From contig JAKOTN010000067.1 of the NCBI GenBank assembly GCA_029776255.1, positions 1 through 40,062 of the forward strand: a DNA stretch of 40,062 bases, given 5' to 3'. Position numbers and translations under genes: made by a program. The notes under the pieces are model-generated. The model was given only the letters and a program-made list of their open reading frames with translations. It did not search any database and was not told the DNA's origin. Below, one piece after another: positions 6,761-14,178 of the stretch. Within the stretch, counting starts at the first letter, position 1. Each line of letters starts with the position of its first letter. Source of the DNA: Pseudomonadota bacterium. GTDB taxonomy: Bacteria; Pseudomonadota; Gammaproteobacteria; Burkholderiales; Rhodocyclaceae.

Positions 6761-7660
6761 CTACGGTGCGACGACCACGCGGCGTGGCTGCAAACGGCCG
6801 GAATCTTCGACTTCGCCGAGTCCCAGCAGGCGAGAAAAACCATACACGCGGTATTTTCCGGCATCGGCGCTAACCGTCACCGGATTACCGTGCAGGAAAC
6901 GCAGGCCGTCCGCGTCATCAAGGTGTACGGCTGGCAAACTTTGCAGCAGGGTATCGAGCGACAGCAAATGCCTTGCCCTGTCCTGTTCCGGTTGTGTGGT
7001 CAATTGCTCCAGCGTCACCGCGCCGGTCACGCACAAGGAACCGACGGCAATGCGGCGCAACGCGGTGAGATAGGCACCACAATCGAGGGTATTACCAATG
7101 TCCTCAGCCAATGCGCGGATGTACGTTCCCTTGCTACATCTGACGCGCAGACGACAGCGATCACCCGCGAAATCGAGCAATATCAGTTCGTGGATGGTCA
7201 CCTCGCGCGCCTCCCGCTCGACTTCCACGCCTTGGCGAGCCAATTCGTATAGCGGCCTGCCGTCGCGCTTGAGCGCCGAGTACATCGGCGGAATCTGCCG
7301 CAAGGGACCGCGGAAACGGGCAAGAACGGCTTCGAGTTCGGCCAGTTGAAAAGCAACCGGGCGACGCCGCACGACAGCGCCTTCGGCGTCACCGGTGTCG
7401 GTATTGGCGCCGAACAGCAGATCCGCTTCGTAGGTCTTATCGGCGGCGAGCAGATCGATCGAAAACTTGGTGGCTTCGCCAAAACACAGCGGCAACAAAC
7501 CGCTGGCCAGGGGATCGAGAGTGCCAGTGTGACCGGCCTTGGCGGCCGAGAACAGCCGCCGCGCGCTCTGCAAGGCCGCGTTGGAGCTACAACCGCTTGG
7601 CTTGTCGAGCAACAGCACGCCATCGACGCGCCGCCAGGTTTTGCGGACGCTCGAACTCAG
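6761..7660 (-). CDS. truB: tRNA pseudouridine(55) synthase TruB
   Basis: TruB converts U55 of tRNAs to pseudouridine. The catalytic motif GHTGTLDPLASG with its nucleophilic Asp is intact, and LLLDKPSGCSSN, KTYEADLLFG, QIPPMYSALKRDG, the Lys-Gly-Thr-Tyr-Ile-Arg block (KGTYIRALAEDIG) and a C-terminal PUA-like segment follow. Family-like residues (RKTWRRVDGVLLLDKP) extend upstream of the first ordinary start, a GTG at 7618. The only start-like codon reaching them is CTG at 7660, which overlaps the rbfA stop as CTGA. I place the start there (299 residues, near the usual length), but a GTG start at 7618 giving 285 residues cannot be excluded. It is the last gene of the rimP-nusA-infB-rbfA-truB operon. 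Confidence 0.88.
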   Translation of the reverse strand: MSSSVRKTWRRVDGVLLLDKPSGCSSNAALQSARRLFSAAKAGHTGTLDPLASGLLPLCFGEATKFSIDLLAADKTYEADLLFGANTDTGDAEGAVVRRRPVAFQLAELEAVLARFRGPLRQIPPMYSALKRDGRPLYELARQGVEVEREAREVTIHELILLDFAGDRCRLRVRCSKGTYIRALAEDIGNTLDCGAYLTALRRIAVGSLCVTGAVTLEQLTTQPEQDRARHLLSLDTLLQSLPAVHLDDADGLRFLHGNPVTVSADAGKYRVYGFSRLLGLGEVEDSGRLQPRRVVVAP

Positions 7661-8073
7661 AGCGGCTGCGCCGGCGCGGCGTCCGGTTTGTCGTCCGCCG
7701 GCGGATTATCGTGATCCGAGATCGCCACCGCCTCGCCGATCAGGCGCGACAAATGCGCGCCACGCTCTAGGGAATCGTCGAAAACAAAATGCAATTGCGG
7801 CGTCGTGTGAATGCGGATGCGCTTGCCCAGTTCGCCCCGCAAAAAACCGGACGCTTTTTGCAAACCGGCGAGAACGGTGTCCAGGCCCGCGCCACCCTCC
7901 AAGGTGCTGAAGAAAATCTTGGCGTGCGCGTAGTCTGGGCTGATCTGCACGTCGGTCAGACTGACCATGCCGACGCGGGGGTCGCGCAACTCGCTACGCA
8001 ACACTTCCGCCAATTCGCGGCGGATCTGCTCGCAAATCCTGTCACGACGAGAATATCCCTTATGGTCAACCAT
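7657..8073 (-). CDS. rbfA: 30S ribosome-binding factor RbfA
   Basis: This 138-residue protein of the RbfA family helps mature the 16S rRNA 5' end and the 30S subunit. Recognisable parts are RRDRICEQIRRELAEVL at the start, DPRVGMVSLTDVQISPDYAHAKIF across the KH-like core with its interrupted Ala motif, and TTPQLHFVFDDSLERGAHL. The last roughly 20 residues are a Pro/Ala/Asp-rich tail. Its ATG follows the infB stop with no gap (TAA then ATG), and its own stop overlaps the proposed truB start. Translation of the three genes is therefore probably coupled. Confidence 0.95.
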   Translation of the reverse strand: MVDHKGYSRRDRICEQIRRELAEVLRSELRDPRVGMVSLTDVQISPDYAHAKIFFSTLEGGAGLDTVLAGLQKASGFLRGELGKRIRIHTTPQLHFVFDDSLERGAHLSRLIGEAVAISDHDNPPADDKPDAAPAQPL

Positions 8074-10938
8074 TTACAGCGTCCTGGCGACTTCCGTGAC
8101 GTCGTAGGCTTCGACTTGGTCGCCTTCTTCGTACGCGCTGAAGTTCTTCAGCGACAGACCGCACTCGAAGCCGCCGCGCACTTCCTTGACGTCGTCCTTG
8201 AAACGCTTGAGCGATTCGATTTCGCCGTCCCAGACGACGATGTGCTTGCGCAGTACGCGCACGCGTGAACTGCGCTTGACGACCCCTTCCAGGACATAGC
8301 AACCGGCAATGGTGCCGATCCGGGTTGCCCGGAACACTTGCCTGATTTCGACCAGACCGGTGATGTCCTCGCGTTTTTCGGGCGCGAGCATGCCGGACAG
8401 GGCGGATTTGACCTCGTCTACCGCGTCGTAGATGATGTTGTAGTAGCGAATGTCGACGCCCGCCGTTTCCGCTGCCTTGCGCGCGCCGGCATCCGCCCGG
8501 GTATTGAAGCCGATGATGACCGCCTTGGACGCCTGCGCCAGATGCACGTCGGACTCACTGATCGCCCCGACCGCGGCATGAATGACGTTGACCTTGACCT
8601 CGGCGGTGGACAATTTTTGCAGCGACTGCACCAAGGCTTCTTGCGAGCCCTGCACATCGGCCTTGATGATCAATGCCAGCACCTTGGCTTCGGCTTCGGT
8701 CATTTGATCGAGAATGGTTTCGAGATTGGCGGCCTGCTTGGTCGCCAGCTTGACGTCACGGTATTTGCCCTGACGGAAGAGCGCGATTTCACGCGCCTTG
8801 CGCTCGTCGGCCAACACCACGGCTTCCTGTCCGGCGGTAGGCACTTCGGAAAGACCGAGAATTTCGACCGGAATCGACGGCCCCGCTTCCTTGACGGTTT
8901 TGCCGTTCTCGTCGTGCATCGCTCGCACCCGGCCGAAAACCTGACCCGCCAGCAGAATATCGCCTTGGCGCAAAGTGCCTGAAAGAACCAGCATGGTCGC
9001 CACCGGACCGCGCCCGCGGTCGAGACGTGCTTCGATGATCAGTCCTTTCGCCGGTGCCTCTTTCGCCGCCTTGAGCTCCAGCACCTCCGCCTGCAACAGC
9101 ACGTTTTCGAGCAGCTCATCGATACCGGCGCCGGTCTTGGCCGAGACATGCACGAACGGCGCGTCGCCGCCATACTCTTCCGGCACCACCTGTTCGGTCA
9201 CCAGTTCCTGCTTGACGCGCTCGGTATTGGCGCCCGGCTTGTCGATCTTGTTGACCGCCACGATGATCGGCACACCGGCCGCCTTGGCGTGGTGAATGGC
9301 TTCCCGGGTCTGCGGCATGACGCCATCGTCAGCGGCGACCACCAGGATCACCAGGTCGGTGGCCTTGGCGCCGCGCGCGCGCATCGCGGTAAACGCTTCG
9401 TGACCGGGGGTGTCGAGGAAGGTGACCATGCCGCGGTCGGTCTGCACATGGTAGGCGCCGATATGCTGGGTGATGCCGCCCGCCTCGCCGCTGGCGACGC
9501 GGGTACGGCGAATGTAATCGAGCAGCGAGGTCTTGCCGTGGTCGACGTGACCCATCACCGTGACCACCGGCGCCCGCGGTTCCAATGGCACGTCCACCTG
9601 ATCGACCGAATCGTCGAGGAAGGCATCGGGGTCGTCGAGCTTGGCGGCAAACGCCTTGTGGCCCATTTCCTCGACGATGATCATCGCCGTTTCCTGATCG
9701 AGCACCTGGTTGATGGTGACCATCGAACCCATCTTCATCAGCGACTTGATCACCTCGGTCGCCTTGACCGCCATTTTGTGCGCGAGATCGGCGACGGAGA
9801 TGGTTTCGGGGACATACACCTGATGAATCACCGGATCGACCGGCAACTGGAAGGAATGCTGCTCGTCGTCGGCGCCGCCGCCACGACCTGGCCGCTTGCC
9901 ATGCTTGGCGTCGCGCCAACCCGACGCGCCGGTCGCGCCACGCGTCTTGAGTCCCGGACGCTTGTTGGCGCCTTCGTTTTTCCACGGTCCCTTTTTGTCG
10001 GCGACCTTCTTTTCCGGCGCTTTCTTGTCGCCGGTTTTTTTGTCACCGGGAGTCGCCGGCTTGGCCGCCGGTTTATGAATCGTTTTATCTTCGGCGGGCC
10101 GTTCACTGGCCGTTTGCGCGGCCGCCTGCTTGGCGACGACCGCCGCTTTGGCAGCGTTGGCTTTTTCCTCGGCGTCCTGCTTCAGGCGCGCGAGATCCGC
10201 GGTGCGCTGCTGCTTGCTCTTGAATTCCGCTTCTTGAATCGCCCGCAGTTCCGCGTTCCGCCGCTCCTCTTCCGCGCGCAAACGCTGCTGCTCCTCGCCG
10301 ATGATCGATGCGCGAGTCACCACTTTCTTGGTGCCTGGCCTGGTGTCGGTTCCCGGTTCGGGTTTTGCCGGCACGCCCTTGCCATCGGCGTGCCGCTCCG
10401 GCCTCGTTTTGGTGGCCGTCGCGGACTTGATCCCAGGTGGGGAATCAACCAGCGGTTCCGGCATCTTCACCTCTTCGACCGGTGGCGTGGGCGCGGCCTC
10501 GACCACGGGTTCGGCGCTAACGATGGCAACAACGGGTTCGACGATAGCCACCGGCGGCGCAACAGGCTCGACCACCGTCGCCGTCTCGACGAGCGCCTCC
10601 TCTTCCGCTGACGGCGCCTTCTCGGCGCGCGCCTCCGGGACATCGCGCTTGACCAGCACGCGTTTCTTGCGCACCTCCACCTGCACGGTATGCGACTTGC
10701 CGTGCGCATCCTGCGCCCGAATCTCGGTCGTTTCCTTGCGTGTCAAAGTGATCTTGGTCTTGGCTTCTGCCTGGCCGTGGGACCGCCGCAGATAGTCAAG
10801 CAGTCTGGATTTGTCCTGCTCGGACAGGATATCGTCGGCCTGCTTCTTGGCCACGCCGGCTTTCTGCAATTGCTCGAGCAGCGTACCAGCAGGCATCTTC
10901 AACTGCGTGGCAAATTGGGCAACACTTGTTTGCGCCAT
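8074..10938 (-). CDS. infB: translation initiation factor IF-2
   Basis: IF-2 is the GTPase that brings fMet-tRNA to the 30S subunit and promotes subunit joining. In the 954 residues one sees the small IF2 N-domain (about 1-55), a long Ala/Lys/Glu/Pro-rich linker (about 95-370), a second N-domain ([16 protein letters not shown] onward, about 375-430), and the G domain with GHVDHGKTS (about 462-470), DTPGHEAF and [11 protein letters not shown]. The C-terminal domains that bind fMet-tRNA end in [18 protein letters not shown]. The ATG is preceded by GGGAAAGAGGAATTC, a strong ribosome-binding site. nusA lies 19 bases upstream. Confidence 0.97.
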
Positions 10939-10957: not shown

Positions 10958-12430
10958 TTACTCGAACCAGTGCGCGCGCGCCGTGGTAATTAATTGTTTC
11001 GCCCTTTGGGCATCGATGCCGGTCATCTCGGTGAGTTCATCGACCGCCAGATCGGCCAGATCGTCGCGCGTCTTGATCCCGCTGCTGGCCAGTTTGCCTG
11101 CCAACGTTTTATCCATGCCTTCGAGACCCAGCATGTCGTCGGACACGTCGCCGATTTTCTCCTCGGTGACGATGGCCTCGGTCAGTAAAACGTTGCGTGC
11201 CCGCTCCCGAAGTTCCTGCACCGTCGCCTCATCGAAGGACTCGATTTCGAGCATCTCGTGAAGCGGCACGTAGGCCACCTCTTCAAGAGTCGAAAACCCT
11301 TCTTCGATCAGGATGTTGGCGACTTCTTCATCGACGTCGAGCCTTTCCATGAACAATACGCGGATCGCCGCCGCCTCCGCCTCGACCATGGTTTTCGACT
11401 CTTCCTCGGTCATCAGGTTGATCGTCCAGCCCGTCAATTCCGACGCCAACCGAACGTTCTGCCCACCGCGGCCGATGGCGATCGCCAGATTTTGCTCGTC
11501 GACGACCACATCCATGCAGTGCTTCTCTTCATCGACGATGATCGAACTGACTTCCGCCGGCGCCAGCGCGCCGATGACGAACTGGGCCGGATCGGACGAC
11601 CAGAGCACGATATCGACCCGCTCGCCAGCCAACTCGTTGGTCACCGCCGTCACCCGCATGCCGCGCATGCCGACGCAAGTACCGATCGGATCGATGCGCT
11701 GGTCGTTGGACTTGACGGCGATCTTGGCGCGCATGCCAGCATCGCGCGCGGCCGCCTTGATTTCCAGCAGCCCGTCGTCGACTTCCGGGACCTCCTGGGC
11801 GAACAGTTTGATGATGAACTCCGGCGCGGTTCGCGACAGGATCAACTGCGGTCCGCGCGCCGAGCGGTCGATGCGCAACAGGTACGCCTTGACGCGGTCG
11901 CCGACCCGCAGGTTTTCCCGCGGGATCATTTGATCGCGCGGCAACAAGGCCTCGACCTTACCCGTCTCGATGATCGCGTTGCCGCGCTCCATGCGCTTGA
12001 CGCTGCCGGTGACCAAGTGCTCCTTGCGACTCAGGAAGTCATTGAGAATCTGCTCGCGCTCGGCATCGCGAATTTTTTGCAGGATCACCTGTTTGGCCGC
12101 CTGCGCGCCGATGCGCCCGAAATCGATGGGTTCCAGCGCCTCTTCGAGAAAATCGCCAATCTCCACCTCGGGGTCCTGTTTGACGGCATCCGACAAGGGA
12201 ATCTGATGCTCGTCGTGCAGGAAGTCGGCATCGGCGACGATTTCCCAGCGGCGAAAGGTTTCGAAATCGCCGGTTTCACGATCGACCACCACCCGTACGT
12301 TGGCGTCGTCGTGGACGCGCTTTTTGGTCGCCGACGCCAACGCCATTTCCAGCGCCCCAAAGACAATGTCCTTGGTGACGTTTTTTTCACGCGCCAGCAC
12401 ATCCACCAGCAGCAAGATTTCGCGGCTCAT
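10958..12430 (-). CDS. nusA: transcription termination/antitermination protein NusA
   Basis: NusA binds RNA polymerase, increases pausing and intrinsic termination, and takes part in rRNA antitermination. Order in the 490 residues: the RNAP-binding N-domain (1-125), S1 (about 130-200, [18 protein letters not shown]), and KH1 and KH2 (about 225-345, with [12 protein letters not shown] and [13 protein letters not shown]). Two C-terminal helix-hairpin repeats (about 360-490) follow, as in other proteobacteria. A near-perfect AGGAGGTGA ribosome-binding site precedes the ATG, and the rimP stop codon TAG lies within it. The operon leader carries two terminator-like hairpins, a plausible target for NusA feedback. 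Confidence 0.97.
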
Positions 12431-12444
12431 CTCTTCTTCACCTC

Positions 12445-12912
12445 CTAAACCAGCCTGTCACTCGATTTCGTCAGCTCGTAACTGGGCACCAGCCGAGCCT
12501 TGTCAATAGCTTCCAAATCGAACTCGAATTCGCCGGCATCGACACTCAAGCGAATCTTGCCCTCCCGTACACCGCGCAGAACACCGTTGAAGTTGCGGCG
12601 ACCATTCAGCGGCAACCGCAGCCTGAGCGTGATTTCCGAACCCGCGAAACGTTCGAAATCGGCCACTTTCTTCAAAACACGGTCCATCCCCGGCGACGAA
12701 ACTTCCAAACGATCGTAGTCGACCTCTTCAACCATCAGGACGCGCGACAACTGGTTGCTGACTAGCGCGCAGTCCTCCACGTCCACTCCGCGCGGTTTTT
12801 CCGGCTTGTCGATGAAGACGCGCAGGACGCGACCATGCGGACTACGCTCGAGATCGACCAACTCGTAGCCGAGACCGGTGACCGTTTTTTCCAGAATTCC
12901 GTGGACATCCAT
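12445..12912 (-). CDS. rimP: ribosome maturation factor RimP
   Basis: RimP assists 30S assembly around the S12/S5 region. The protein (155 residues from the ATG at 12912) shows the family pattern [23 protein letters not shown], then [18 protein letters not shown], the signature [14 protein letters not shown], and the C-terminal SH3-like part. A TTG at 12924 is in frame but lies in the terminator T-run. The start has almost no ribosome-binding site: the 11 bases between T-run and ATG are GTTTGCAGCC-like. Initiation may therefore be weak or depend on the leader. It is the first gene of the rimP-nusA-infB-rbfA-truB operon. Confidence 0.93.
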
Positions 12913-12922
12913 GGCTGCAAAC

Positions 12923-12944
12923 AAAAAATGGGCGAAACGCCCAT
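12923..12944 (-). terminator. second leader hairpin with T-run, just before rimP
   Basis: On the minus strand ATGGGCG pairs perfectly with CGCCCAT around TTT and is followed at once by TTTTTTG. This is a textbook intrinsic terminator shape. It ends 10 bases before the rimP ATG, inside the transcript expected from the promoter at 12989-13017. Confidence 0.8.
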
Positions 12945-12949
12945 CCCCG

Positions 12950-12971
12950 AAAAAATTGCCCCCTGGGGGGC
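12950..12971 (-). terminator. first leader hairpin with T-run, upstream of rimP
   Basis: On the minus strand GCCCCC and GGGGGC flank a 2-base centre (the real loop is probably four bases) and are followed by AA and TTTTTT. It lies immediately upstream of the second terminator-like hairpin and downstream of the predicted rimP promoter. It could also serve to end rluB-operon transcripts. Confidence 0.7.
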
Positions 12972-12988
12972 GAGCGGAAAACCGTTGG

Positions 12989-13017
12989 ATTATAACGAGA
13001 ATAGCGGCGCGGGTAAA
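12989..13017 (-). promoter_or_regulatory. sigma-70 type promoter for rimP-nusA-infB-rbfA-truB
   Basis: On the minus strand TTTACC (13017-13012) is separated by exactly 17 bases from a perfect TATAAT (12994-12989). Transcription would start at about 12982, giving a leader of roughly 70 bases that includes both hairpins. It lies between the rluB stop and rimP. Confidence 0.7.
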
Positions 13018-13044: not shown

Positions 13045-14178
13045 TCAGCGCTCACGTCCGACGCGCGCCGTCCGGCCAGGCGACGGGTTGGCCATGCCGA
13101 CGTCGGACAGCAGTTTGCGCACGTCCGCCTCGGTCAACTCAAGAACTCGCCCGCGCTTGAGGTTGGGCGGCAACAGGAACGAGCCGTAGCGAACGCGAAT
13201 CAAACGACTGACCACCACGCCGACGGCCTCGAACATCCGCCGGACTTCGCGATTGCGTCCCTCGAACAATGAGATCCGGTACCAGCGGTTGGCGCCATCG
13301 CCTCCCGCCTCCTGAAAACTGGCGAACCGCGCCACGCCGTCGTCGAGTTCGATACCTTCGAGCAGACGCGCCTTCGCGTCCTCGGGAAGTTCACCAAGAA
13401 TTCGCACCGCGTATTCGCGCACCAGTTGGTAACGCGGATGCATCAAACGGTTGGCGAGATCGCCGGAAGTAGTCAGCAGCAGCAGGCCGCTGGTGTTGAA
13501 ATCGAGACGACCGACCGCCACCCAGCGGCCGGCCGACATCCGGGGCAGCGAGGTAAAAACGTTCGGCCGGTGGTCGGGGTCGTTGCGCGAAACGATCTCG
13601 CCTTCCGGCTTGTGATAGAGGATCACCCGTGGCAGACGGTCGGAGAAGCGCGGTTGTACCAATTTGCCATTGACCTTGATGCGATCACGGGGATGGACCA
13701 CCTGGCCCACCTGCGCCGGCGCGCCATTGACCGTGATGCGGCCGGCGACGATCATCGCCTCCATTTCGCGCCGCGAGCCAATGCCGCTGTTGGCCAGCAA
13801 TTTATGCAGGCGCTCGGGCTTGCCGGCCGGTTCATGTTGGCGCGCACGCCCCGGGGAAAGCGGTTTGCCGCCGGGACGGGCCGGGCCGCGCGGCGGTTCG
13901 GCGGGTGTGGGAACACCGGCCGTCGCCGGTGTCGGCGAGTTCGTCCGCCGGCGATTGTCCTCCGCGCCTTCCGGACGTCGACCGCCGCGCCCGGACAACG
14001 GCGCCACGGCACCGGGACGCGCGGGACTGCGCGGCCTTCCTTTGGCGACCGTCTCTTTCGCCGCGGCCGGTGAATTGGAAAACGCCGCCGCCGACGGTCG
14101 CCGCCGTTGCTCCGAAGACGAACCCGGGCGCGGCGGACGAGGGAAATCGGCGGGAGATCTGCGCTTGTTAGTGGGCAT
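13045..14178 (-). CDS. rluB: 23S rRNA pseudouridine(2605) synthase RluB with long basic N-terminal tail
   Basis: The protein belongs to the RsuA/RluB group. An S4 RNA-binding domain (about 121-170, [20 protein letters not shown]) precedes a catalytic domain with [15 protein letters not shown], which carries the catalytic Asp, followed by [15 protein letters not shown] and [15 protein letters not shown]. The first roughly 120 residues are low-complexity Arg/Pro/Ala/Gly, surely disordered and probably RNA-binding. Similar but often shorter tails are seen in beta-proteobacterial homologues. It overlaps scpB by 11 bases and ends the PHP-yciO-M50-trpS-scpA-scpB-rluB run. Confidence 0.92.

Follow-up and report, generated by a model that had tools for sequence, protein, structure and literature searches.

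The rimP-leader, a hairpin with a GGGc...gCCC stem, was ranked first among attenuators by Naville and Gautheret in 2010, who gave Firmicutes and Gammaproteobacteria as examples, favoured NusA as the effector while naming RimP as a possible one, and described a tandem form with an inverse hairpin in several Gammaproteobacteria (PMC2965389). In Escherichia coli, rimP is preceded by two terminators, t1 and t2, and the operon that encodes NusA is affected by NusA itself (PMC6511841), and in Bacillus subtilis NusA is autoregulated via NusA-stimulated termination in its own leader (reviewed in PMC12288461). The expression of an E. coli rimP 5' UTR fusion is reduced in a Rho mutant (PMC7815308), and controls besides NusA may thus act on the rimP operon too. 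As for the terminators themselves, interruptions of the distal U-tract are linked in B. subtilis to NusA-dependent termination, and both TTNTTT and a stem with basal A-U pairs to NusG-dependent termination (PMC8060035).

The leader described here is probably a rimP-leader transcription attenuator of rimP-nusA-infB-rbfA-truB tuned by NusA feedback. The idea of NusA autoregulation, already put forward for this locus in a sequence-only reading, is largely right and not new, the hairpin next to rimP (H2) being the rimP-leader of Naville and Gautheret. The rimP-nusA attenuator, described for Gammaproteobacteria as Rfam RF01770, is extended to a betaproteobacterial order, in which it is very widespread, mostly one per genome and often at the start site of the operon; its conserved interrupted U-tract, for which no description was found in the rimP-leader literature cited here, offers a concrete point at which to test how the level of NusA, and perhaps of NusG, might be sensed by the factor itself outside the model species.

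The locus and its gene order

The window, i.e., the whole stretch of 40,062 nucleotides that was analysed, comes from a genome of the genus Candidatus Accumulibacter; among the named genomes (best 80 of 264 loci) the closest NusA, with 94% identity, belongs to an Accumulibacter MAG. Members of Accumulibacter are wastewater bacteria. The features of the locus are the following:

13045-14178, minus strand: RluB-like pseudouridine synthase, upstream gene (NF007976, 277.3 bits, slightly below the cut-off of 290; TIGR00093 above cut-off)
12989-13017, minus strand: sigma70-type promoter TTTACC-17-TATAAT, best pattern match, conserved in the genus, predicted start about 12986-12982
12950-12971, minus strand: H1, C-first hairpin GCCCC(CCAG)GGGGC then AATTTTTT (sequence, terminator scan, fold)
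12923-12944, minus strand: H2, putative rimP-leader attenuator hairpin ATGGGCG(TTT)CGCCCAT with proximal U-tract (sequence, fold, conservation, pattern and model matches)
12919-12928, minus strand: interrupted U-tract T6-G-T3, holding TTGTTT, distal part of H2, with its first T paired to an A of H2
12445-12912, minus strand: rimP, ribosome maturation factor, first gene after the leader (NCBIfam NF000929, 201 bits versus a cut-off of 147)
10958-12430, minus strand: nusA, transcription termination/antitermination factor, proposed regulator (NCBIfam TIGR01953, 421 bits versus a cut-off of 253.4)
8074-10938, minus strand: infB, translation initiation factor IF-2 (NCBIfam TIGR00487, 836 bits)
7657-8073, minus strand: rbfA (NCBIfam TIGR00082)
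6761-7618, minus strand: truB (NCBIfam TIGR00431)

Along the minus strand, the stop of the RluB-like gene is followed by the promoter, H1, H2, GTTTGCAGCC and the rimP ATG, with GTTTGCAGCC representing the ten bases that separate the T's of H2 (end 12923) from the ATG at 12912. The promoter, the two hairpins and a rimP ATG lacking a ribosome-binding site had all been claimed from the sequence, and every element was recovered at its minus-strand position; in particular, no Shine-Dalgarno sequence was found in the window before the ATG (12922-12913), which is preceded by GCAGCC. This pre-ATG sequence is identical in 23 of 25 genus genomes, and an AGGAA-like sequence stands before rimP in several Zoogloea-type relatives. 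RimP was detected in 193 of 199 genomes by a family-wide search; the rimP queries began at 12915 and included one extra residue ahead of the start. No tRNA gene was found in the window.

Conservation of H2

H2 consists of ATGGGCGTTTCGCCCAT and five T's, with the stem-loop at 12944-12928 and the T's extending to 12923; taken alone it folds at -9.8 kcal/mol (z -3.4 versus shuffles), and the pattern TGGGCN{3,8}GCCCATTTTTT has one match in the window and none in 100 shuffles. The general motif of the rimP-leader, a GGGc...gCCC hairpin with a U-stretch, is found here as ATGGGCGTTTCGCCCATTTTTT at 12944-12923, 10 nt ahead of the rimP ATG and within the 4-130 nt before rimP that define its location. 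A hairpin of this type occurs in 78 of 80 named loci, the other two being cut off upstream, and before RimP in all of the 60 order pieces (41 families), in which one (L057) is a GGCC variant. The named loci are the best 80 of 264 from the NusA scan, several of them from the same genomes as the genus set, and the order pieces were picked from those genomes whose RimP coordinates were listed.

The six outer pairs of H2 are invariant in 47 leaders, and within the genus variation is confined to the loop and the innermost pair; a stem that is invariant rather than covarying is expected if a protein or the polymerase reads its sequence. The H2 profile was anchored on the hairpin, and the GGG, the CCC and the first four T's are therefore not independent observations in it. 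There are 76 distinct named leaders, and alignment A2 (n = 47) was made without L137, L139-L141, L145 and L146; alignment A3 holds 7 of 9 leaders and A4 holds 9, with the remaining distinct named leaders outside the alignments. A leader peptide starting from the AUG of H2 was considered and rejected, since single-base changes of loop or U-run length in close relatives (L007, L020, and L110, judged by eye) break the frame.

Specificity for rimP

In the order, the H2 pattern is found in 208 of 300 genomes, hence not in all of them, and the reversed control pattern gives three matches; more than one match occurs in only 15 of the 208, so that the element is mostly present once per genome. Among the 150 matches listed, 81 are in genomes with a listed RimP position, the other 69 being uncheckable, and 77 of these 81 share the strand of rimP and precede it by 7-154 nt; one of the four matches away from rimP is a second site in the genome of the window itself (C133:236021).

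A covariance model, R1, was built from 25 order sequences of equal length (alignment A6), the first model alignment (A5, 40 sequences) having mis-stacked the 5' arm owing to unequal loop lengths. At E 0.01, R1 retrieves the rimP-leader site alone in the genome of the window and sites in 73 of 398 phylum genomes, a count which the strict filters and the order-built model lower; the exact form of H2 is not universal in the phylum. The best 30 phylum loci of R1, one of which (L186) is a training sequence, comprise 29 with rimP-nusA directly downstream and one (L198) with neither gene. The operon specificity that characterizes the general rimP-leader is thus also seen here (77/81; 29/30), and a hairpin tied to one gene is unlike an ordinary operon terminator. 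Further properties shared with the general rimP-leader are the GGGc...gCCC terminator with a U-tract just before rimP-nusA-infB, a sequence-conserved stem, and, a transient alternative fold aside, no visible antiterminator.

The interrupted U-tract

The tract behind H2 is composed of five to seven U's, one or two other bases and at least three further U's in 25/25 genus genomes, 78/78 named leaders and 50/60 order pieces, the most common form being U6-purine-U3 (TTRTTT) anchored to H2. Among 16 further terminator-like sites that the finder saw in 236.5 kb of this genome, a small control set drawn from one contig, none has the interrupted form; one shuffled copy of this sequence contains three sites. 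The block can stay by the hairpin even when rimP is distant (~78 nt in L072 and ~160 nt in L192). Simple termination would not require the stretch after the proximal U-run, and yet this stretch is conserved. In comparison with the NusA- and NusG-dependent terminators of B. subtilis, H2 shows all three features, namely the distal interruption, the basal A-U pairs of the stem and TTNTTT, which is a parallel and not a proof. For the general rimP-leader, the main text of Naville and Gautheret (PMC2965389), supplementary lists aside, makes no mention of an interrupted tail.

The ten order pieces without the interrupted tail include seven with U8-10, one with U6-A-U2 (L054), one with U4-CA-U3 (L079), and the GGCC variant L057. 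The uninterrupted tract of U8-10 is present in L067, L068, L071, L076, and L077 (families f31, f10, f8, f4), whose hairpins are more than 100 nt from rimP, as well as in L037 (58 nt) and L036 (16 nt), the latter from a genus in the same family as the window; these pieces perhaps form a second leader subtype.

The promoter and the predicted start of transcription

The promoter boxes on the minus strand are TTTACC (13017-13012) and TATAAT (12994-12989), separated by a 17-base spacer; with a score of 10/12 this is the top of six sigma70-like matches in 15 kb (2.6 expected), and TTTAC-18-TATAAT has one match in the window and none in 100 shuffles. All 25 genus genomes, the window among them, have both promoter and H2; in them ATTTAC is invariant, the spacing is constant and the -10 box is TATAAT in 24 and TACAAT in one. 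On the basis of the -10 box, transcription is predicted to start at about 12986-12982; numbering from ~12983, H1 would extend from ~+13 to +26, H2 from ~+40 to +56 and the ATG would be at ~+72, with release at H2 at ~+57 to +63.

In the order pieces, a TATAAT-like hexamer (at least 5/6) ends 10-22 nt before the H2 stem in 30/60 and lies 10-60 nt before it in 47/60; going upstream in 13-nt windows to 65 nt, such boxes number 7, 27, 6, 8, and 5 of 60, and from 66 nt onwards 0-4 of 52-60 per window. The box ending 10-22 nt before H2 suggests that in many cases fewer than 20 nt of transcript precede the attenuator.

Two minor elements were observed around the promoter. An inverted repeat, GCGCGGGT-GCATTT-ACCCGCGC at window positions 13028-13007, overlaps the -35 box and, judged by eye, is lost in several relatives. 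A tiny hairpin, CGG-UUUU-CCG (window 12984-12975, alignment A2 columns 27-36), lies where the leader is predicted to begin, with one pair maintained via two-sided changes in 3 of 47 leaders.

H1 and the folding of the leader

H1 consists of GCCCCCCAGGGGGC and AATTTTTT, with the stem-loop at 12971-12958 and the T-run at 12955-12950. A general terminator scan of the window listed H1 and missed H2 (20 sites in all versus 16.0 expected), while a second finder, requiring at least six stem pairs, listed H2 and one other window site and missed H1, whose stem is under the minimum. A C-first stem can be drawn by eye at the H1 position in each of the 25 genus genomes; the T-run between this stem and H2 reaches at least four T's in 19 of them and at least five in 14, the six genomes below four having an AACC-type sequence (five) or TTCTTT (one). 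The seven aligned Zoogloea-type leaders carry a different hairpin at this position, without a U-run.

The proposal of two terminators gains support for the near-invariant H2, and the equal conservation that it implied does not extend to H1; likewise, the expected conservation of promoter and both hairpins in relatives holds for the promoter and H2 and fails for the T-run of H1. As a terminator, H1 appears less certain than H2. Its description as a covarying conserved RNA was also set aside: two pairs are changed on both sides in 47 Rhodocyclaceae-type leaders, a level reached by 106 of 500 shuffles, the level of the Zoogloea set is reached by 37 of 500, and no covariation of H1 was found within the genus.

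As a whole, the 71-nt leader folds no better than its shuffles (z -1.0). The region from the predicted start to H2 is modestly more stable than its shuffles (mean z -1.18); z is below -1 for 30 of the 65 distinct named leaders analysed, after six of the 78 named leaders had been skipped for having no -10 box.

Proposed mechanism and alternative explanations

The anatomy, the conservation, the rimP-specificity and the unusual U-tract are read from the sequence, and the start site, the termination, NusA as effector and the role of H1 are deduced. Transcription would begin ~12 nt before H1, and part of the RNA polymerases would be released at H2, with a leader RNA of ~60 nt as the product, while the remainder would read through into rimP. 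H2 would be a deliberately imperfect terminator, with a short invariant AUGGGC/GCCCAU stem, A-U pairs at the base and an interrupted U-tract, so that its efficiency would depend on NusA, perhaps together with NusG; more NusA would lead to more termination at H2 and hence to less new NusA. H1 would be an accessory, lineage-specific hairpin that may provide another, weaker termination site where Accumulibacter genomes have kept its U-run. A more specific proposal is tentative, and rather doubtful in its full extent: H2 as a sequence-specific, factor-tuned terminator whose conserved U6-purine-U3 tail, read as TTRTTT on the non-template strand, is a NusA/NusG pause-and-release signal common to Beta- and Gammaproteobacteria, which acts within about the first 30-60 nt and couples the level of NusA (and NusG) to promoter-proximal escape without an RNA switch.

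The simpler reading, in which ordinary intrinsic terminators only end the transcripts of the rluB operon and the operon promoter is elsewhere or the predicted one is incidental, agrees with the co-directional RluB-like gene, whose stop at 13045 is ~73 bases upstream of H1. It is nevertheless distinctly unlikely, given that the promoter is kept at fixed spacing in 25/25 genus genomes, a -10-like box ends 10-22 nt before H2 in 30/60 order pieces, H2 is retained in two order pieces having tRNA genes upstream (L059, L088), and its sequence is rimP-specific, unlike that of general terminators. The sequence-only reading had already disfavoured this explanation, and two of its claims, a terminator that operon transcripts have to traverse before they reach rimP and control most likely by NusA, gain support from the conservation, the rimP-specificity and the literature on the same element (PMC2965389, PMC12288461, PMC6511841). 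Attenuation might also be real with RimP or some other factor as the effector, as Naville and Gautheret considered for RimP; this is very unlikely, since the same authors preferred NusA (PMC2965389) and self-control by NusA is reported in both E. coli and B. subtilis.

NusA feedback would be dispensable if the hairpin mainly yielded a stable short leader RNA, as an sRNA bound by ProQ- or Hfq-type proteins, or served as a 5' stabiliser or translation element. A rimP-leader RNA is among the ProQ-associated, attenuator-derived sRNAs (PMC5391140), and the U-rich stretch might aid ribosome binding to a rimP without Shine-Dalgarno sequence; however, the U6-R-U3 block remains by the hairpin where the start codon is far off (L072, L192), which makes this explanation improbable; a stable RNA is, moreover, compatible with attenuation. 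An RNA switch, in which the C-rich 5' arm of H1 pairs with the G-rich 5' arm of H2 as an antiterminator, as proposed for the gammaproteobacterial tandem, is consistent with the polarity of H1 and H2, equal to that of the tandem (PMC2965389), and with the alternative pairing being the minimum-energy fold at 50 and 55 nt of transcript (-16.7 and -18.3 kcal/mol). The final fold with H1 and H2 is more stable (-27.3 kcal/mol), and in 30/60 order pieces the -10 box is too near H2 for any H1; the switch is unlikely because the competing fold is transient and the Zoogloea-type leaders are devoid of the needed C-rich arm.

Comparison with related leaders and Rfam families

With NusA feedback as the preferred reading, the leader of the window resembles that of B. 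subtilis nusA (ylxS), from another phylum, in its proposed logic, NusA-stimulated intrinsic termination within the 5' leader of the nusA operon. With RF01770 (E. coli t1/t2) it shares the tandem form, an upstream inverse CCC...GGG terminator (here the GCCCC...GGGGC of H1 with its T-run) followed by a G-first hairpin, with a U-run behind each; the spacing between H1 and H2 is 13 nt in the window and much larger in E. coli. RF01770 is below its gathering threshold in the window and, at E 0.001, has no match in the window's genome, with 102 bits for the copy of E. coli; at gathering threshold, no Rfam family matched in the window. A tRNA-Met or tRNA-Val gene lies shortly upstream of the tandem in 9 of 12 class members scanned, in contrast to the window; its H1 resembles the gammaproteobacterial arrangement, with a promoter standing upstream in place of the tRNA gene.

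In eight class members outside the order (L174, L176, L178, L180, L182, L188, L193, L199), a terminator-like hairpin, C-first except in L193 where it is G-first, is located between the tRNA-Met/tRNA-Val gene and H2, and the upstream hairpin of the gammaproteobacterial tandem may be a leaky tRNA terminator. L051 (family f19) has two G-first terminators in tandem before rimP, ACGGGCCGAGGGCCCGTTTTTT then GATGGGCCAAGGGCCCATTTTTT, which suggests that the tandem arrangement may have more than one origin.

RF02420 (Bp1_162, a Burkholderia sRNA candidate) scores 26.7 bits in the window, on the opposite strand and versus a cut-off of 50, without matches at E 0.01 in the window's genome. In the 300 order genomes it has below-cut-off matches in 36 other genomes and three over-threshold matches, all on rimP leaders and antisense to rimP, whose gene lies just downstream:

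L214, G309:C1:1488607-1488703
L215, G279:C1:218023-218123
L216, G143:C44:373275-373371

Because the T-run of the hairpin is on the rimP strand, RF02420 may be a mis-stranded rimP leader.
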